Source of the DNA: Clostridia bacterium
GTDB lineage: Bacteria; Bacillota; Clostridia; Oscillospirales; CAG-272
Assembly (NCBI GenBank): GCA_017461365.1
Contig: JAFTYG010000067.1
Coordinates: 85,927-149,926, forward strand
DNA length: 64,000 bases
Direction: 5' to 3'
Shown: positions 16,998 through 48,886 of the stretch, one piece after another
How the letters are laid out: each line of letters begins with the position of its first letter
How positions within the stretch are numbered: position 1 is the stretch's first letter
Notes under the pieces: generated by a model
The model's input: only the letters and a program-made list of their open reading frames with translations
What the model was told of the DNA's origin: nothing
Database searches by the model: none
Made by a program: the position numbers and the translations under genes

Positions 16998-17410
16998 ATA
17001 TCGATTCCATTCAAAACGGATTTGTTATCGACCACATTCCCGCAGGAAAGGGAATGACTCTTTATGATCTTCTCGGTCTTGACGAGCTCGATTGTTCCAT
17101 AGCTCTCATAAAGAACGTAGGAAGCGAAAAACTCGGTAAAAAGGACATAATAAAGATCGATGCGGCTATCGAGATCAATTTCGATATAATCGGCTTTATC
17201 GCGCCCGAGGTTACGGTAAACATAATCAATGACGGTAAGATAGTTGAAAAGAAAAAAATGGAGCTTCCTCTTGAGCTCACGGGTGTTATAAGCTGCAAAA
17301 ATCCACGTTGCATAACGTCAACCGAGCAGGAGCTTGTTCACAGATTTAAGCTTACTGACAAGGAAAACAGAGTGTACCGTTGTATTTATTGCGAAACAAA
17401 AGCAAACTGA
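16994..17410 (+). CDS. pyrI: Aspartate carbamoyltransferase, regulatory subunit
   Basis: A 138-residue regulatory chain. The C-terminal zinc domain has Cys101, Cys106, Cys130 and Cys133, the same spacing as the four zinc cysteines of the E. coli chain. The N-terminal domain should bind CTP/ATP and give feedback control of PyrB. Bacilli lack pyrI; it is known in Clostridia. It is the last gene of the operon and is followed at once by a strong terminator. Confidence 0.96.
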
Positions 17411-17450
17411 AAAAACTCCAACACGGCTATTTCGTGTTGGAGTTTTTTTA
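17411..17450. terminator. Shared terminator of the pyr operon and spoIIR
   Basis: ACTCCAACACG (17415-17425) and CGTGTTGGAGT (17433-17443) form a perfect 11-bp stem, with A runs on the left and T runs on the right, so it can act on both strands. The spoIIR stop codon lies within it. Confidence 0.9.
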
Positions 17451-18050
17451 TCTCAGAGTTTCTTCTATAACTTCTAAAATACGAAAGCGTACGTTATATG
17501 TGGGATATTCGGTCTCGGTGATGATCCCGTATTGTTCTTTGCTGAGTCCCACAGATATAAATGCATCCTCGGGATCGGGTGTGCTTGCTGCCGACAGGCA
17601 CATCGGCGGGAAGAGAACACACCACCAATTTTGGCCCTCGCCGTTGCCTATGATTATACGCAACGACATATAGCTCCCCGACGGAAAACAAAATTCCTCG
17701 TAGTTTTTTGTGGGATAGACTTCCTCGCCAAGCTCAACAGAAACCTCATAAGTATAGCCTTCGGATCGTATGACCTCCGCTGCCTCTGCTTTGAGTAATT
17801 TAAGATTTTCGGCAGTTTTCTTGATTGCCTCCTCGCGTGTCGCGCAATCTCCGAAGAGCGTTTCGCTTTTTTGCAGCAGAGCGTCCCTTACCTTGAGCTT
17901 CAATTCCTGATCCTCATCGCTGTCCGAGTTAGCGATAACGTGCAGGCGTAGGACACTGTCGTATATTTCGCTTTCACCGTGTACGGGCATCAAGCCGAGA
18001 AAAAGAAATAAACAGCAGATAACTGCTATAACCGTAGTAGATCTTTGCAT
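17448..18050 (-). CDS. spoIIR: Stage II sporulation protein R
   Basis: A 200-residue secreted protein with an N-terminal signal or anchor (about 5-22) and the SpoIIR hallmarks LRLHVIANSDSDEDQELKLKVRD (in two parts, residues about 32-54) and GQNWWCVLFPPMC (about 137-149). In Bacillus it is made in the forespore under sigma-F and signals across the septum to SpoIIGA so that pro-sigma-E is cleaved in the mother cell. It shows the host to be a sporulator. Its ribosome site (AAAGGAG, 18060-18066) lies in the 3' arm of the upstream hairpin (see separate entries). Confidence 0.95.
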   Translation of the reverse strand: MQRSTTVIAVICCLFLFLGLMPVHGESEIYDSVLRLHVIANSDSDEDQELKLKVRDALLQKSETLFGDCATREEAIKKTAENLKLLKAEAAEVIRSEGYTYEVSVELGEEVYPTKNYEEFCFPSGSYMSLRIIIGNGEGQNWWCVLFPPMCLSAASTPDPEDAFISVGLSKEQYGIITETEYPTYNVRFRILEVIEETLR

Positions 18051-18053
18051 AAA

Positions 18054-18107
18054 TAAAAACTCCTTTAAAAAATGATTTACTCAATCATTCCACAAAAAGG
18101 AGTTTTT
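18054..18107 (-). terminator. Terminator-like hairpin that also holds the spoIIR ribosome site
   Basis: On the minus strand a 12-bp outer stem (AAAAACTCCTTT with AAAGGAGTTTTT) and a 7-bp inner stem (AATGATT with AATCATT, loop GAGTA) follow the stop codon of the MltG-like gene, ending in TTTTTATTT. The 3' arm contains the AAAGGAG of spoIIR, so read-through RNA would have this site paired. Confidence 0.8.
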
Positions 18108-18112
18108 TATTC
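18082..18112 (-). promoter_or_regulatory. Candidate sigma-F (or sigma-G) promoter of spoIIR
   Basis: Minus strand GAATA (18108-18112), 16 bp, GGAATGATTG (18082-18091). The known Bacillus sigma-F pattern is GYATA, about 15 bp, GGNNANANTR; the -10 fits at all but one fixed position. No sigma-A-like site was found here. Transcription would begin near 18075, after the 5' arm of the hairpin. Confidence 0.5.
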
Positions 18113-18473
18113 ATTGATTTTGAAAATTTATAAATTCATTCAATATGTCGCGGTAGCTCATATCCGAATTTAACTCGACCGAGCCGCGAAAGCTCTCCAA
18201 AAGCTCATCCTTGTTTTTTAATTTGACGTACGCCCAAAAAGCCAACGAGTTATCAATAACGCCCGACGTTTGAAGCTGTGATGACAATCCTTTCAGCGCG
18301 GTAGGTTCGGTTACCTCAAATGATACTGTATTTGACGGTTTTACAAAAGCAAACAGATCGTTTGCTAGCGACAGTATAAGACAGGCGCAAATAATTGCGA
18401 AAAGAGTTATGACGGTTATTTTTGAAAAAGCAAAGCGGTAAAGGATATTTTTCGGTGTTTCGGTATTTTGCAT
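18111..18473 (-). CDS. Short MltG/YceG-like membrane protein without the catalytic domain
   Basis: A 120-residue protein with one N-terminal membrane segment (about 17-37) and an outside domain that follows the N-terminal LysM-like part of endolytic transglycosylase MltG: VTEPTALKGLSSQLQTSGVI, then FWAYVKLKNKDE, then the MSYRDILNEF ending. Full MltG is about 340-380 residues, with the catalytic glutamate in the missing C-terminal part. The gene has a good ribosome site (GAGGAG) and a terminator, and no remnant of the missing domain follows, so it looks like a real short protein and not a fresh truncation. It may bind glycan or a partner near spoIIR; function unknown. Confidence 0.7.
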   Translation of the reverse strand: MQNTETPKNILYRFAFSKITVITLFAIICACLILSLANDLFAFVKPSNTVSFEVTEPTALKGLSSQLQTSGVIDNSLAFWAYVKLKNKDELLESFRGSVELNSDMSYRDILNEFINFQNQ

Positions 18474-18498
18474 ATTCGCTCCTCGCGGTACAGTGATC

Positions 18499-19512
18499 TC
18501 ACAGCCAAGAAATTATCAAGGCCAATATGTACACAGCAAAGCAGGCGATTGCGGAGGGCTGACGTATAATATCGGTATATGAGCGACGCAGTGTTGTGCT
18601 GTCTTTTATGACAGGTTGTCTGTAATCGGCGGAGTATGCCTTGTAGAGATATATTTTATAAAGTCTTGCGGCTTCTCCGCAGAATACTGCGGCTGAAAGT
18701 ATGCATACAGCGGCAACTATAAAGATAAAGAGCTTGGGGCTGTTGGTGATCTGATAAAGATTACTCATATAGGGTTGTCCGAAAAGCCCGAAAATATTAT
18801 AAAGAAAATGCGTTATGACGGCACCGAAGAGCGAGCGTGTAGCATACAGTGTCATTGCAAGGATAATTCCCGAAAAAAGATACATCGGCAGATTTTGAAG
18901 ATTGAAATGAAGTAGTGCGAAAAATATCGAGCTGACGATAACGGCGCGCATAACTCCGCCTTTTTCATATTCGTGGCAAAGGATGCCTCTGTATATAAAT
19001 TCCTCGCATATAGCGGGGAGCACCGCGTATGCCATAACAAGATAGATCTTATTTGGTATCGTTCCCTGATCCTTTGAAATAAATGTATCGTAAAGTGAAA
19101 AATTATTTGAAAGGCTTTCAAGACCGCCGAACAGAACTCCGAGCAAAAGACTTCCCGAAGCGATTAGCAGAGCACCCGAAATTATAATAAGTATCGAGTC
19201 TGCCTTTACCGTTCTGAGGCGAAGTCCCGACATATATTTTTCTCCGCTGAATTTACACCATATCGCGCCCGGGAGAATGAATATCATCATTTGCAATATA
19301 ACAACGCTGAAATATTCGTTTTCTCTGTTTATGAGCGTAATGTCTATGAGCTTTGTAAAAAGCAATAAAACATACGTTGCGAGAACGAGCGCCGTCGGAT
19401 GGATGATAAAGGTTCTGCTTTTGAGATTGGTATATATTCCCTCGATGGTTTTCAACGGAGGCGTAGCGTCAGTATTTTTCTTTACGCGTTTTTCTTTACG
19501 TTCTTTATTCAT
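18499..19512 (-). CDS. CPBP-family intramembrane metalloprotease (CAAX/Abi type)
   Basis: A 337-residue protein with about eight membrane segments and the CPBP/Abi motifs: EEFIYRG (Glu170, Glu171, Arg175), a His in ALLHF (His202) and HFLYN (His235). Bacterial members cleave membrane proteins or act in bacteriocin immunity; the substrate cannot be told. The N-terminal 20 residues are highly basic and face the cytosol. Its start overlaps the end of the formyl-THF cyclo-ligase gene by eight bases, so it belongs to the hisS-led operon. Confidence 0.88.
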   Translation of the reverse strand: MNKERKEKRVKKNTDATPPLKTIEGIYTNLKSRTFIIHPTALVLATYVLLLFTKLIDITLINRENEYFSVVILQMMIFILPGAIWCKFSGEKYMSGLRLRTVKADSILIIISGALLIASGSLLLGVLFGGLESLSNNFSLYDTFISKDQGTIPNKIYLVMAYAVLPAICEEFIYRGILCHEYEKGGVMRAVIVSSIFFALLHFNLQNLPMYLFSGIILAMTLYATRSLFGAVITHFLYNIFGLFGQPYMSNLYQITNSPKLFIFIVAAVCILSAAVFCGEAARLYKIYLYKAYSADYRQPVIKDSTTLRRSYTDIIRQPSAIACFAVYILALIISWL

Positions 19513-20098
19513 AAGGAAAAAAACCTCCGTTTTCCGTTATAATTATATCCACGGTGGAGTCGTGATCTTCTACGGGAAGTCTGTCTACGAAAAAGGCACT
19601 GTAAGCAAGTCCCAATGATACACCGTTGAAATCAGGCAGAAATCTGTCGTAATATCCTCCGCCGTAGCCGAGCCGGTAGCCGCTTTTATCGAAAGCAAGG
19701 GCTGGTACTAAGCAGAGTGAATTGGCGAACGACGTTACCACGGGTAATTCGCAAGGCGGTTCGGGAATTCCGTATGCGCCTATCACAAGCTCCGAAAGAT
19801 CGGATAGAACGTGAAATGACAGCCGTCTTTCTTTTATGTGCGAGATAGGAAACGCAATAGCTTTTCCCAGCGCCTGCGCGTGACGTACAAGGGGGAGAAT
19901 GTTCGGCTCTCCCTTTATAGGATAGTAACAAAGTAAGGTGTTCGCTTCCTTGAATTGCGGCAAAGCGGCGGCGTTCGAAAAAAGAGCCGTATCAAGTAAA
20001 AAACGACTTTCATTTGAGATGCTCTTTCTTTGTTCAAAAAAATGAGCGCGAGAGCGTTCCTTGTTTTCGCTTTCGGTGAGTATAATTTCCCTAGGCAT
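19505..20098 (-). CDS. 5-formyltetrahydrofolate cyclo-ligase
   Basis: A 197-residue enzyme that uses ATP to turn 5-formyl-THF into 5,10-methenyl-THF, returning folate to the one-carbon pool. The C-terminal signature LVPALAFDKSGYRLGYGGG followed by YYDRFL is the family hallmark, and the N-terminal basic helix with R residues (KERSRAHFFEQRKSI) fits. Its start overlaps the end of the DJ-1-like gene by eight bases. Confidence 0.93.
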   Translation of the reverse strand: MPREIILTESENKERSRAHFFEQRKSISNESRFLLDTALFSNAAALPQFKEANTLLCYYPIKGEPNILPLVRHAQALGKAIAFPISHIKERRLSFHVLSDLSELVIGAYGIPEPPCELPVVTSFANSLCLVPALAFDKSGYRLGYGGGYYDRFLPDFNGVSLGLAYSAFFVDRLPVEDHDSTVDIIITENGGFFPYE

Positions 20099-20630
20099 AA
20101 ATTACGGCTTTCTTCAAATCGTCTGCTTTCGCTTTTCCGCAAAAGACATTTACGATCTCCAAACCGAGATCGAGAGCTACGCCCATACCTGCCGCGGTTA
20201 TTATTTTACCGTCGCGCACTACTTTTTTCTCGGATACGACAGCTCCCGTAAGTCTGTCCTCAAATCCCGGGTAGCAGATAGCTTCTTTTCCGACAAGAAG
20301 TCCCATATCTCCGAGAATAGAAGGAGCGGCGCATATAGCGGCAATATATATATTTGCCGTTATGGCGTTATTTATCGCGTCAATAACGGTACTGCTGTCG
20401 GCAAGGTTGAGAGTTCCCGGCATACCTCCCGGGAGAAATATCATTTCTGCATCGCCGCCGTCAAACTCGCTGTCGGTAACGTCCGCTTTTACGGTAATAT
20501 TGTGTGAGCCTGTGATCTCGCGTCCGCCGACTCCAACGGTCTTTACGGAAAGTCCCGCGCGACGCATAATATCAAGAGGGCAGAGAGCTTCTACTTCTTC
20601 AAAGCCCTCGGCAAGAAACATATATATCAT
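20091..20630 (-). CDS. DJ-1/PfpI family protein (YajL/ThiJ-like)
   Basis: A 179-residue flavodoxin-like protein with the DJ-1 features: AEGFEEVEA near the start (Glu14), PGGMPGT and the nucleophile elbow AAICAAPSIL (Cys100). Members act as glyoxalase/deglycase-like stress proteins or chaperones; the exact activity is debated. Overlaps the next gene by eight bases and follows hisS by 34 bases, so it is in the same transcription unit. Confidence 0.9.
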   Translation of the reverse strand: MIYMFLAEGFEEVEALCPLDIMRRAGLSVKTVGVGGREITGSHNITVKADVTDSEFDGGDAEMIFLPGGMPGTLNLADSSTVIDAINNAITANIYIAAICAAPSILGDMGLLVGKEAICYPGFEDRLTGAVVSEKKVVRDGKIITAAGMGVALDLGLEIVNVFCGKAKADDLKKAVIYA

Positions 20631-20664
20631 AATTCGGTTTTGCCTTTCATATACTTCAGTATGT

Positions 20665-21966
20665 TTATTTTTTGAAGAATGCTACAAGCTCGTTTGCGTC
20701 TGTTGTGATCTCCTCACGGCTGAGAAGATCCTTTATCTTTACTTTATTTTCCGCAAGCTCCGAGCCACCCATAATAACGACGTGGGTGTAGTTGTTTTTA
20801 ACGGCGTAATCTATCTGCTTTCCGAATTTTTTAGATCCGAGATATACAGAAGCGGTTATATCCGCGTCACGAAGCTCATTTGTTATAGCTACATATTTTT
20901 CGTACGGAACATCGTCAAATCTTGTGACAAGCACCTTTACGTCGGTTGTAAGCATTTCGGGTATAAGACTGTGAGTTACAAGAAAGTTCTCAAGCGTAAC
21001 GTCTCCCATTCCGTAACCGACGCCTGAGATCTTTGCGTTCTTTACAAAGAGACCAACAAGGTTGTCATAGCGTCCGCCGCCGAACATTGCGCGATTGTTT
21101 TCGGGAGCATTATCAAATACCTCAAAAACAGTACCTGTATAATAATCAAGTCCGCGGATTATACCGAAGTCAAACAGGCAGTACTTAGAAAGTCCGAGCT
21201 TGTCAAGAGCTTCAAAGAGAAGGCGAAGCTCTGTAGCGCCTACAGAGTCGGGACAGATGGCGGTCGCATCGGTAACAGACATACCGTAAAGCTCATCTAT
21301 CTTTGCTATCTGCTCACCGTTAAGTCCGAGCGCGATAAGCTCCTTTTCATAGACTTCTCTCGGTATCTTGTTCTTTTTGTCGATGACCTTGGAAACGAGC
21401 TTGCTGTGCTCCGCATCGCCGCCCGAGATAGCTGCAATAACGTCATTGAAGAAGCGGCGGTTATTTATGCGAACCGTGAACATCGTTTCGTCCGCGCCGA
21501 ACGATCTCATAATGCGGATAGCGCTGACGATAGTTTCAAGGTCAGCTTCATAGGTATCACATCCGAAGATGTCGACGTTGAGCTGCCAGAACTCGCGCAG
21601 ACGTCCGCGTTGTGTGGCTTCGTAACGGTACATATTCGGTATCGAGAACCAACGGAGAGGAAAGCTGAGATCGTTCATCTTAGCGGCGACCATACGCGCT
21701 ACGGTAGGTGTCATTTCTGGACGGATAGCAACGCTTCTGTCGCCTCTGTCGACAAAATTATAGGTCTGCTTGTTTGCGATCTCCTCACCGCTTTTTGCGG
21801 CGTAGAGCTCAAGGGATTCAAGCATAGGTCCGTTATATTCATCGAAAGCGGCTGTCTCAAGTGTTTCTCTTATTTTACCGAAAAACCAATTGCGAAGACG
21901 CATATCATCGGGGTAAAAATCTCTTGTACCTTTATAGGGTTGTGTGGAAAGCAATTGTGCGCACAT
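20665..21966 (-). CDS. hisS: Histidyl-tRNA synthetase
   Basis: A 433-residue class II synthetase: YKGTRDFYPD near the start, motif 2 region YRYEATQRGRLREFWQLNVDIFG in two parts (about 112-134), the HisA motif RGLDYYTGTVFE and the C-terminal anticodon-binding domain starting near DVKVLVTRF. Charges tRNA-His in the cytosol. GAAAGGA lies 10 bases upstream of the ATG. The leader from the promoter is only about 40 bases, so no T-box fits. Confidence 0.96.
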   Translation of the reverse strand: MCAQLLSTQPYKGTRDFYPDDMRLRNWFFGKIRETLETAAFDEYNGPMLESLELYAAKSGEEIANKQTYNFVDRGDRSVAIRPEMTPTVARMVAAKMNDLSFPLRWFSIPNMYRYEATQRGRLREFWQLNVDIFGCDTYEADLETIVSAIRIMRSFGADETMFTVRINNRRFFNDVIAAISGGDAEHSKLVSKVIDKKNKIPREVYEKELIALGLNGEQIAKIDELYGMSVTDATAICPDSVGATELRLLFEALDKLGLSKYCLFDFGIIRGLDYYTGTVFEVFDNAPENNRAMFGGGRYDNLVGLFVKNAKISGVGYGMGDVTLENFLVTHSLIPEMLTTDVKVLVTRFDDVPYEKYVAITNELRDADITASVYLGSKKFGKQIDYAVKNNYTHVVIMGGSELAENKVKIKDLLSREEITTDANELVAFFKK

Positions 21967-45953: not shown

Positions 45954-46325
45954 TCAATCCGAGTAGGCTTCTATAATCGAATAAAGTTCTTTTTCGCTGT
46001 TTACCCAAAAGCCCTCTTCGATCTCGGCTCTGTCGACTTCGGGGAGGGTTTTTACATATGTGTCTATAACCTGTATTAGCTTGCCGTCGATGTCAAATAC
46101 TCCGATCTTACCGTTATAGTCCTTTATTTGCCATGCGTCTTTTTTTGTGATGGCTTCTGTTTCGGTATCATTTTGGCTGACGTAAATATATACGGCATCC
46201 GTATCCTTTGGCAAAGAGTGCTTTTTTCTGAGAGCGAACAGCAAAGTAAACGTAACGGAGGTCAGCAGTACAAGAAACAGAAGAGCAATAGCTGCGGCGG
46301 CAATGTGCGGTATTTTTCGTTTCAT
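45954..46325 (-). CDS. BofC C-terminal-domain-like membrane-anchored protein
   Basis: A 123-residue protein with one N-terminal membrane segment (about 8-32) and an outside domain resembling the C-terminal half of BofC: WQIKDYNGKIGVFDIDGK, then TYVKTLPEVDRAEIEEGFWVNSEKEL, then IIEAY. BofC in Bacillus is a forespore protein that restrains the SpoIVB protease during sigma-K activation. Only the C-terminal domain is present here. The start at 46325 is preferred because AAGGTGA precedes it. Whether it is a sporulation protein in this host is inferred from the family. Confidence 0.75.
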   Translation of the reverse strand: MKRKIPHIAAAAIALLFLVLLTSVTFTLLFALRKKHSLPKDTDAVYIYVSQNDTETEAITKKDAWQIKDYNGKIGVFDIDGKLIQVIDTYVKTLPEVDRAEIEEGFWVNSEKELYSIIEAYSD

Positions 46326-46414
46326 AACGATCACCTTATGATTTTTTTATTATTATCTGCCGTTTTGTGATTATCTATACTTTATATTGGAATAATATAT
46401 AAAAAGGTAATTTT

Positions 46415-46425
46415 GGAGGTGATCC
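46415..46425 (+). promoter_or_regulatory. Extended Shine-Dalgarno of the class A PBP gene
   Basis: GGAGGTGATCC is complementary over 11 bases to the conserved 3' end of 16S rRNA, and sits 7 bases (counted from GGAGG) before a TTG start codon. Confidence 0.8.
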
Positions 46426-46426
46426 T

Positions 46427-48886
46427 TTGAAAGGTAGGTTTTTGAAGGCTTTTTTAAAGACTGTATGTATCATCCTTATATTTTTGATGGCGTTTTCATT
46501 GACGGTCGGCGGAGTATTGGCGGTGTATGTGGAAAAAACTTTTGAAAAGAGTATTGATGAAAGCCTGTTTTCAATAGTTGGAAGCGGAAGTGATACGTCT
46601 CTGTACTATTATGAGACGAATGAAGAAACAGGAGCCGTCGAAGCGCACAAGCTCGAGGGAGAAATCATTTACGGCGGATACAGATGTGTTTATGCCGATT
46701 ATGAAAGTATTCCCGACGATTTGAAGGATGCTTTTGTCAGTATTGAGGACAAGCGGTTTTATAAACATAATGGAGTCGATTGGAAAAGAACACTGTCGGC
46801 AGGGCTCAATTATTTTCTGAAATTCAGCGATAGCTACGGCGGCTCTACCATAACGCAACAGCTTATCAAAAATATAACCGATGAAGATGATTATTCACTG
46901 CAACGAAAGATACAGGAGATATTCTGGGCGCTTGATCTTGAAACAAAAATGGATAAAAAAGAGATATTGGGACTCTATTTGAATATAATCAATTTGTCTC
47001 AGGGATGTTACGGCGTGGGCGCGGCGGCAGATTATTATTTTTCCAAGGACGTGTCAGAGCTTACTCTTAATGAATGTGCCTGTATTGCCGCAATAACCAA
47101 CAGCCCGTCTTATTACGATCCGCTGAGAAATCCCGAAAACAATAAAAAAAGAAAGGACATCATACTCGACCAGATGTATGAGCAGGGATATATCGACAGT
47201 GAAGAATACGCATCCGCTAAGGGCGTGGATATTGTATTGAACGTAAATCAAAAATACGATTCAGACGAGATAAATTCGTGGTACACGGATATGGTAGTAG
47301 AGGACATAATAAATGATCTTGTCGAGCAAAAGGGGTATAGCCGCGCTATGGCTAATCTGCTTATATATACGGGTGGATTGAAGATATATACGGCGATGGA
47401 TCCCGAAATTCAGGATATACTTGAAGAATATTATGCCGAGACCTCGCATTTTTATAACAACGGTGAAGGGGAGACTCCGCAATCATCAATGATAATAATA
47501 GATCCGTATAACGGAGATATTCTGGGAGTTGCGGGAGCTGTCGGAGAAAAAAATGCAAACAGAATACAGAATTTTTCCACGCAGACATTGCGTCCGCCGG
47601 GATCTGTTATAAAGCCGCTTTCGGTCTATGCGCCCGCTATGGAGGAAAATATTCTTAATTGGGCGACCGTATATGACGACGTTCCCGTAAATTTCGGAAA
47701 TTACAATACCGATCCTGAAAAAGGGGAGATTATTGAACCTGTGGCGTGGCCCGCAAATTCAAACGGCATATACAGAGGACTTACAAATATAAATTATGCG
47801 ATAAAGCAATCAATAAATACCGTAACGGTACGCGCTCTTGAGGATCTCGGACTTGAAAAATCATTTGACTTTTTGTATGAAAAGGTTGGACTTACAAGCA
47901 TGATAAGATCGGGCTCAGACGCAAACGGCTCGTTTATTACCGATATGGACGTGGCGGCTCTTGCCTTGGGACAGTTGAATTACGGTGTGACGGTAAGAGA
48001 GATAACGGCGGCATATTCTATATTCGTAAATAGCGGAATATACAGCGCCCCCCGTTCTTATTATAAGGTTACGGACAGCTACGGAAGCATCCTGCTTGAA
48101 AATAAATACAACGGAAACGCGGTAATATCCGAGGAAAATGCTACCGTTATGAGTATGATGCTTGAAAACGTTGTGGATGACGGAACTGCAAAGGCAATTA
48201 CCTTGAAAGAGCAGATCGCTTGCGCGGGAAAAACGGGAACGACGCAAAACAATTATGACCGATGGTTTATCGGATATACTCCGTACTTCATAGGCGGAGT
48301 ATGGTTCGGCTACGAATATCCGAAATCTCTCAGCGGATCTAATCTCTGCCTTGCTATATGGGATGATATTATGACTGAGATACACGAAAGAAAGGCATAT
48401 ATTTCGGAAGAAAAATTTTTCAACTATTCGGATAACGTAGTTGAGGTTGAATACTGTGTCGATTCGGGCAAGCTGATGACAGAGGCGTGTAAAAGAGATC
48501 CGAGAGGAAGCCGCGCAGAGCGAGGATATTTTGCGCTCGGGAACGCACCCGTAGGTTACTGTGACTGTCATATACCCGTCGCATATGACAATGAGGAAGG
48601 CGGAGTATCGCTTGAGGGAATGTGTAACGAAAATGTCTCATATATCGGAATGATAACCGTTGAAAGAAATTTTCCCATGCAGATATACGTTACCGACGCT
48701 CAGTATGTATGGCGAGACATCGGAGATGATATTTTTCCCGAAACCTCTCCTAAGCTCGCATTTTTTAACAATATATTCGGAGAGAATCAATATTGCGGTG
48801 TGAGCAATACCGAATACCAGTTCAACCGTCTTTGCCGAGCTCATTTTGACTATTATCAGTGGATAGAAAAAAGAAACAAATATTAA
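46427..48886 (+). CDS. Class A penicillin-binding protein (transglycosylase/transpeptidase)
   Basis: An 819-residue bifunctional wall-building enzyme, anchored by one N-terminal membrane segment (about 10-35). The GT51 domain has the catalytic IEDKRFYKHNGVDW (Glu107) and GGSTITQQLIKN (138-149). The transpeptidase domain has the SxxK motif in PPGSVIKP (Ser393, Lys396), SIN (462-464) and KTGTT (602-606). Polymerises and cross-links peptidoglycan at the outer face of the membrane. The TTG start is fixed by an unusually long Shine-Dalgarno. No ATG in frame lies nearby upstream. A role in vegetative wall or in spore cortex cannot be separated by sequence alone. Confidence 0.95.
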   Translation: MKGRFLKAFLKTVCIILIFLMAFSLTVGGVLAVYVEKTFEKSIDESLFSIVGSGSDTSLYYYETNEETGAVEAHKLEGEIIYGGYRCVYADYESIPDDLKDAFVSIEDKRFYKHNGVDWKRTLSAGLNYFLKFSDSYGGSTITQQLIKNITDEDDYSLQRKIQEIFWALDLETKMDKKEILGLYLNIINLSQGCYGVGAAADYYFSKDVSELTLNECACIAAITNSPSYYDPLRNPENNKKRKDIILDQMYEQGYIDSEEYASAKGVDIVLNVNQKYDSDEINSWYTDMVVEDIINDLVEQKGYSRAMANLLIYTGGLKIYTAMDPEIQDILEEYYAETSHFYNNGEGETPQSSMIIIDPYNGDILGVAGAVGEKNANRIQNFSTQTLRPPGSVIKPLSVYAPAMEENILNWATVYDDVPVNFGNYNTDPEKGEIIEPVAWPANSNGIYRGLTNINYAIKQSINTVTVRALEDLGLEKSFDFLYEKVGLTSMIRSGSDANGSFITDMDVAALALGQLNYGVTVREITAAYSIFVNSGIYSAPRSYYKVTDSYGSILLENKYNGNAVISEENATVMSMMLENVVDDGTAKAITLKEQIACAGKTGTTQNNYDRWFIGYTPYFIGGVWFGYEYPKSLSGSNLCLAIWDDIMTEIHERKAYISEEKFFNYSDNVVEVEYCVDSGKLMTEACKRDPRGSRAERGYFALGNAPVGYCDCHIPVAYDNEEGGVSLEGMCNENVSYIGMITVERNFPMQIYVTDAQYVWRDIGDDIFPETSPKLAFFNNIFGENQYCGVSNTEYQFNRLCRAHFDYYQWIEKRNKY

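Follow-up and report, generated by a model that had tools for sequence, protein, structure and literature searches.

The window analysed here, a stretch of 64,000 nucleotides, is part of one contig of a host assembly of 2.38 Mb over 92 contigs. Its minus strand carries, in this order, hisS, genes for DJ-1/PfpI, 5-FTHF ligase and a CAAX protease, a short YceG/MltG-like ORF and spoIIR (Table 1). The first-pass annotation had called the gene next to spoIIR "MltG-like". A YceG/MltG match was found for it; however, the match was weak and partial and did not reach the Pfam cut-off. The ORF stands alone and covers just the first 62 of the 275 YceG/MltG profile positions. In 19 of the 30 genus members, the called neighbour of spoIIR was a co-directional ORF of 355-425 nt (two of these were checked against Pfam). 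It is from the YceG/MltG-like ORF that the read-through considered below would originate.

Table 1 Features at the spoIIR locus (positions are those of the window)
Feature	Position	Strand	Evidence
spoIIR CDS, 200 aa	17448..18050	-	PF09551 Spore_II_R, E 3.6e-47
spoIIR ATG	18050-18048	-	sequence
spoIIR Shine-Dalgarno (SD) AAAGGAG, 9 nt ahead of ATG	18060..18066	-	whole SD inside 3' arm
Outer stem, 5' arm AAAAACTCCTTT, 12 of the 15 promoter-spacer bases	18096..18107	-	fold, spacer shuffling
Outer stem, 3' arm AAAGGAGTTTTT, SD and T run	18055..18066	-	fold z -6.0, covariation score
Inner 9-bp hairpin within the outer-stem loop; 5' strand shares bases with the -10	18069..18091	-	fold
-35 GAATA	18108..18112	-	order-wide motif; invariant in 29 genus alignment rows
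-10 TGGAATGAT, sigma-F-type promoter	18084..18092	-	motif score
Predicted transcription start, 7 nt past the last T of the -10 (+/- a few bases)	18077	-	motif geometry
YceG/MltG-like ORF, 120 aa, co-directional, upstream; presumed end of the hisS operon	18111..18473	-	PF02618 E 2.9e-4, under Pfam cut-off
Remaining presumed upstream operon: hisS, DJ-1/PfpI, 5-FTHF ligase, CAAX protease	18499..21966	-	Pfam, ORFs
Terminator-like hairpin, 16 bp, separating convergent pyrI and spoIIR	17410..17448		-22.1 kcal/mol, z -8.4

A 12-bp stem ahead of spoIIR, with the SD in its 3' arm, had been described in the first-pass annotation and is borne out by the sequence (18107-18096 with 18066-18055). The computed fold of 18044-18118 on the minus strand reached -23.7 kcal/mol (z -6.0), a value that none of 200 shuffles equalled. 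An inner 9-bp stem (18091-18083 with 18077-18069) is an addition to the earlier description, which had the outer stem alone. When RNA from 18083 onward was folded, the structure was gone (-3.0 kcal/mol, z +1.1). A search of 17300-18600 against Rfam at gathering scores gave 0 matches, and the reading of the region as a curated riboswitch or RNA thermometer was therefore dropped.

The promoter was located with a motif that started from a sigma-F-like consensus of B. subtilis, adjusted once the sequences had been inspected, and that was then refined with the upstream regions of spoIIR. The refined motif reads TG(A/T)ATAA and G(T/G)CAATA(A/C)T, and the spacing from G(A/T)ATA to the -10 was most often 15 nt. 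Scores above 8 were reached by 135 of the 154 spoIIR regions, which are the training set, by 7 of 440 controls and by 8 of 462 shuffles. A fairer check of the motif than its own training set is given by the sigG regions of the order, which played no part in the refinement, and 19 of 23 of them scored above 8. Within the genus, all 30 members scored above 8 and all 30 had a spacer of 15 nt, other lengths being permitted by the scan. Beyond the -10, conservation between genus-mates was poor in the alignment of 29 of the 30 members (one of L013 and L014, which are identical here, was omitted). The first-pass annotation had proposed an element GAATA-16-GGAATGATTG; such an element is present, but the reading was one base off, and the order-wide motif fits GAATA-15-TGGAATGAT. 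Its statement that the promoter spacer is the 5' arm of the hairpin proved correct, as the arm sits between the -35 and the -10. The -35 GAATA also shares bases with the TGA stop of the upstream gene, an overlap found in 2 of the 30 genus members.

Judged by sequence, the geometry of this promoter, with -35 and -10 at 15-16 nt, appears to be of the sigma-F type. Sigma-G may contribute as well. The -10 of the genus is somewhat unlike the order consensus, and for C. difficile, where some spoIIR transcription persists in a sigF mutant, a possible role of sigma-G in transcribing spoIIR was suggested on this ground (PMC7438776). A scan of the own genome for the exact motif returned one exact match (spoIIR) and four matches with one mismatch; these four were set aside as they look like chance (5 in total against 3 for the control).

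The energy needed to open the SD was then compared between the read-through RNA and the short RNA that would start at the promoter. The order set consisted of 160 fetched loci, of which 159 had a start placed and 154 an SD scored (L057 was masked, and the partial matches G066 and G094 were excluded). A spoIIR promoter was considered usable when its motif score was above 6 (139 of 154) and its start lay far enough before the SD (122). As controls, 440 genes were taken from the window and from 32 further 20-kb stretches belonging to the genus and the order, each gene with a pseudo-start drawn at the same distances; 394 of them were usable.

In this genome, the predicted opening cost was 12.2 kcal/mol in the read-through RNA, with an SD pairing of 0.999, and 1.4 kcal/mol in the short RNA. 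The order medians were 9.1 (long) and 1.9 kcal/mol (short) for the 122 spoIIR genes, compared with 2.3 and 2.0 kcal/mol for the controls. A drop of more than 5 kcal/mol was predicted for 72 of the 122 genes (23 of 30 in the genus and 49 of 92 in the others) against 13 of the 394 controls; with all scored loci counted, the figures are 72 of 154 and 13 of 440. In 62 of the 72 drop cases, the bases that pair with the SD were within the promoter, from the -35 through the -10; the other 10 had a different geometry. The choice of the start had little influence, since offsets of 4, 7 and 10 nt gave a drop in 72/110, 74/110 and 70/104 of the order loci, respectively. The first-pass annotation had supposed that forespore RNA begins past the 5' arm and leaves the SD free. 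Motif geometry places the predicted start at about 18077, past the arm, and the predicted energies agree with a freed SD both here and in the 72 order genes.

Two further loci stood out. One control gene (L202:3349 (+), genome G005) has a strong SD-holding hairpin together with an upstream GAATA, and its opening energy goes from 8.1 to 4.5 kcal/mol. The other, at 46320-46430 of the window, is a divergent pair whose TTG-start gene looks PBP (penicillin-binding-protein)-like by eye; the SD of this gene is predicted to be paired (7.8 kcal/mol), with a promoter-like score of only 6.1.

To our knowledge, the sequence of a promoter spacer is not expected to be read by the sigma factor, so shuffling the spacer alone is the clearest test of selection on the stem. 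It was applied to 110 of the 122 order loci and to 31 of 45 class loci (motif score above 8 and -35 inside the folded stretch). In the genus, the median SD opening energy fell from 12.4 to 3.1 kcal/mol, and in 26 of 30 members none of 15 shuffles matched the natural spacer. In the rest of the order it fell from 8.7 to 4.2 kcal/mol, with the natural spacer unmatched in 45 of 80 loci. Outside the order the change from 3.5 to 3.0 kcal/mol was not significant (p 0.1; natural spacer unmatched in 6 of 31).

Compensatory changes in the stem, which the first-pass annotation had proposed to look for, were found in part. The covariation score of the genus alignment was 0.195 against 0.148 for shuffled alignments; none of 500 shuffles reached it, and versions with the stem slid along the alignment stayed at or below 0.150. 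However, changes on both sides, seen in 7 of 15 pairs, were not above chance (294 of 500 shuffles reach this number, and slid versions gave up to 11), and neither was the number of covariation pair types in the genus alignment (168 of 500). RNAalifold returned no consensus pairs on the full genus alignment, in which stemless rows are included. Selection on the promoter spacer at the RNA level is supported by these sequence comparisons.

The T run TTTTTATTT follows GGAG, which is the stem-then-T-run arrangement of an intrinsic terminator. The outer stem has just four G-C pairs, and a terminator scan that covered loops of 3-8 only gave no entry for the spoIIR outer hairpin. A hairpin that had 9 bp or more, contained the SD and was accompanied by a run of four or more T ahead of the start codon was counted in 22 of 29 genus spoIIR genes, 23 of 110 in the rest of the order and 7 of 440 controls; without the T-run condition the counts were 25 of 29, 55 of 110 and 68 of 440 (SD words shorter than 4 letters were excluded for spoIIR and controls, leaving 139 spoIIR genes). 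We infer that the hairpin probably stops part of the read-through transcripts.

This raises the alternative that the hairpin acts solely as an intrinsic terminator for the upstream operon. In so tightly packed an arrangement the 3' arm of the terminator would also serve as SD, the promoter would overlap the terminator, and pairing of the SD would be without a role in its own right. A run of four or more T past the SD indeed accompanies the hairpin, being present in 48 of 72 hairpin cases against 2 of 29 genes with a drop of 2 kcal/mol or less, and the other terminator-like hairpin, at 17410-17448, has the same CTCC...GGAGTTTTTT style. In L313 (Flintibacter muris), a sigma-F-like promoter lies within a terminator-like hairpin with the SD outside, possibly a termination-only form. 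However, the T run is missing in 24 of the 72 hairpin cases, and few other genes place their SD in such an arm ahead of a T run (the 7 of 440 above). The element also accompanies spoIIR behind varied upstream genes: YceG-like or CAAX protease genes in the genus, and elsewhere RF-1 (L083), GHMP kinase (L091) and heptaprenyl diphosphate synthase component I (L076). Because these genes vary, the element seems tied to spoIIR rather than to any single upstream gene. That termination is the whole function is thus rather unlikely in our estimation.

A second alternative is that the hairpin lowers translation of the very RNA made in the forespore, as a small hairpin at the RBS does in B. subtilis sigG. 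A few loci keep structure in the short RNA, with 5-9 kcal/mol remaining (L006, 6.0; L019; and L083 outside the genus, 8.6). However, the median short-RNA opening of 1.9 kcal/mol is near that of the controls, and we consider this alternative very improbable.

If the element guards against read-through, it is expected to fade where the upstream gene is divergent. Orientation was taken from homology-supported neighbours, which were callable for 224 of 295 loci (287 of the 295 upstream regions are distinct). In the order outside the genus, a drop was present in 41 of 60 loci with a co-directional neighbour versus 2 of 8 with a divergent one (Fisher p 0.04). Among the named loci (80 of 291), a partly overlapping set with the order, it was 20 of 34 versus 3 of 23 (p 0.0008). 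The genus gave 22 of 29 versus 1 of 1, and the class outside the order 6 of 25 versus 0 of 7, which is not significant (rank test p 0.57). On the spoIIR tree, each divergent clade was set against the co-directional relative nearest to it, and in 9 of 12 such contrasts the drop was lower in the divergent clade (p 0.03). A cruder test with orientation from ORF calls was weaker (order outside genus 36/60 versus 12/27, Fisher p 0.24; named loci p 0.05; class p 0.08), and this version was replaced as it had wrongly placed L001 among the divergent loci. Several loci called divergent have the hairpin anyway (L253, L171, L173 and L030, the call for L030 being possibly spurious).

At least one drop case was present in 16 of 25 family groups (24 families, with the own genus kept apart), and the stem sequences differ among them. 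The other 9 groups were without a case, and two of all groups had no usable case. Outside the order the signal was weak, with a drop in only 8 of 45 loci (295 of 309 loci were scored, including 62 class loci of which 45 had a usable start; L302, Anaeromassilibacillus senegalensis, was left unscored). The own family beyond the genus gave a drop in 0 of 10 loci. For its 11 loci a neighbour was callable in five, all of them divergent, and three were more than 500 bases off. The named relatives (80 of 291) consist almost entirely of metagenome-assembled Clostridia, Oscillospiraceae or Ruminococcus bacteria, many of them from the ruminant gut, with a few isolates such as Flintibacter muris.

Within the genus, 7 of 30 members (L003, L007, L009, L010, L019, L022 and L024) had a drop below 5 kcal/mol with a co-directional neighbour called, and opening energies were 1.8 kcal/mol or less in L007, L009, L024 and L022. 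The T run was gone in L007, L009, L010, L011 and L024, while the SD and the -35 were kept and the 5' arm aligned poorly; L011 was nonetheless above the energy cut (7.4 to 1.5 kcal/mol). The first-pass annotation had regarded loss of the stem with retention of the SD as evidence against its proposal. Most genus members do not show this state; the minority that does comprises L007, L009, L024 and L022, with poor alignment in L010 and L011. As the SD is kept without the stem in this minority, the element can be lost, and its absence from part of the genus indicates that it is dispensable in some backgrounds.

Other forespore genes were also analyzed. The sigG gene is a classic sigma-F target. In the own genome (L222, contig C81), judging by the ORFs in the fetched stretch, the gene ahead of it appears to encode an ABC transporter ATPase and is not sigE. 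By inspection, its -10 and next bases AATACTCCTGACAT pair with the SD and T run ATGTCGGGAGTATT in a terminator-like hairpin, and the predicted SD opening energy is 14.2 kcal/mol in the long RNA and 1.5 kcal/mol in the short one. In sigG of the genus, the -10 box CAATACTCC would itself be the anti-SD arm. A drop was predicted for 20 of the 22 order sigG genes with a usable promoter (26 loci, 23 scored; 18 of 19 in an earlier parse) and for 10 of 24 in the wider class (28 loci, 27 scored). For gpr (17 of 18 loci scored), a motif above 8 was found in 2 of 17 and an opening above 5 kcal/mol in 2 of 17, with no drop above 5 among the 3 with a usable promoter. For spoIVB (20 of 24 loci given, 14 scored), the motif was above 8 in 0 of 14 and the opening above 5 kcal/mol in 2 of 14, and none had a usable promoter. 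We put at even chances the broader proposal that promoter-split insulating hairpins belong to the regular design of the forespore cell-fate genes of this order (spoIIR and sigG), in which stems would turn over between families while the geometry stays, and the spacer or the -10 would carry a second, RNA-level code selected to silence read-through behind vegetative genes.

The remaining alternative, that AT-rich upstream regions containing GGAG and runs of T adopt such folds unselected, as a matter of chance or genome style, can point to the 68 of 440 controls with some SD hairpin of at least 9 bp; it is already disfavoured and highly improbable, because control genes of the same genus and order differ (7/440 hairpins, 13/394 drops), spacer shuffling lowers the opening energy, the element recurs with differing stems in 16 of 25 family groups, and it is scarce at gpr and spoIVB.

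We consider it likely that the spoIIR element is a promoter-split insulating hairpin. Read-through RNA from the hisS operon would carry both arms and form the hairpin, which would end some of the transcripts and, in the remainder, pair the spoIIR SD; we infer that ribosomes could not start on such unterminated RNA since its SD is paired. In the forespore, the sigma-F polymerase would use the DNA of the 5' arm as promoter spacer and start in or just beyond the loop. The RNA made there would hold the 3' arm alone, so that its SD would be free. The earlier interpretation, that spoIIR is insulated from read-through, is supported in this respect, and the steps of it that can be tested by genome comparison came out mostly favourable.

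Hairpins confined to read-through RNA that cover a ribosome site are known from IS10-type protection from impinging transcription. The likeness to IS10 lies in this arrangement, and the difference is that IS10 is a mobile element whereas spoIIR is a developmental gene. In phage T4, the longer early RNA of gene e (also of soc, 49 and I-TevI) buries the ribosome site in a helix, and RNA from late promoters, which lie just ahead of that site, is missing the 5' portion of the helix and is translated well; for e, the cited effect is 100-fold (PMC3014915). At spoIIR, by the folding predictions, the SD likewise appears to be paired in the long RNA and free in the short RNA, in which the 5' strand would be absent. 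The cases differ in that gene e concerns the timing of phage lysis and spoIIR a cell fate, with another sigma factor; moreover, the T4 helix is not described as a terminator in the available part of PMC3014915.

For B. subtilis sigG (spoIIIG), a large hairpin has been put forward as what keeps RNA reading through from the spoIIG operon untranslated; RNA made from the sigG promoter cannot form it (PMC5942855). Early sigG read-through is stated to be untranslated (PMC2530871). The logic of a hairpin made only in read-through RNA is shared, and is predicted also for sigG of this order (20 of 22). The differences are that the gene here is spoIIR, that the upstream genes examined are of other kinds, that one arm is the promoter spacer, and that the T run suggests termination as well. 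In the open-access literature, as far as its text was available, no report of such an element at spoIIR was found. Thus, T4 gene e and B. subtilis sigG already illustrate the principle, and what is possibly new here is the gene, spoIIR, the two levels that one element may combine, and a geometry conserved through sequence turnover.

SpoIIR is the signal that links sigma-F of the forespore to sigma-E of the mother cell in B. subtilis. Judging from that organism, leaky vegetative synthesis of a protein that couples the two factors could trip the cell-fate switch, and protection from it would be the benefit to the cell. An element of about 60 bases, maybe acting at two levels and with an otherwise "free" spacer selected at the RNA level, would be a simple answer to the position of spoIIR directly behind a housekeeping operon. 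A mechanism described for T4 lysozyme and for B. subtilis sigG would thereby gain another sporulation gene and an order rich in uncultured gut bacteria, and the layout of the element is kept across many of these related bacteria despite differing hairpin sequences.
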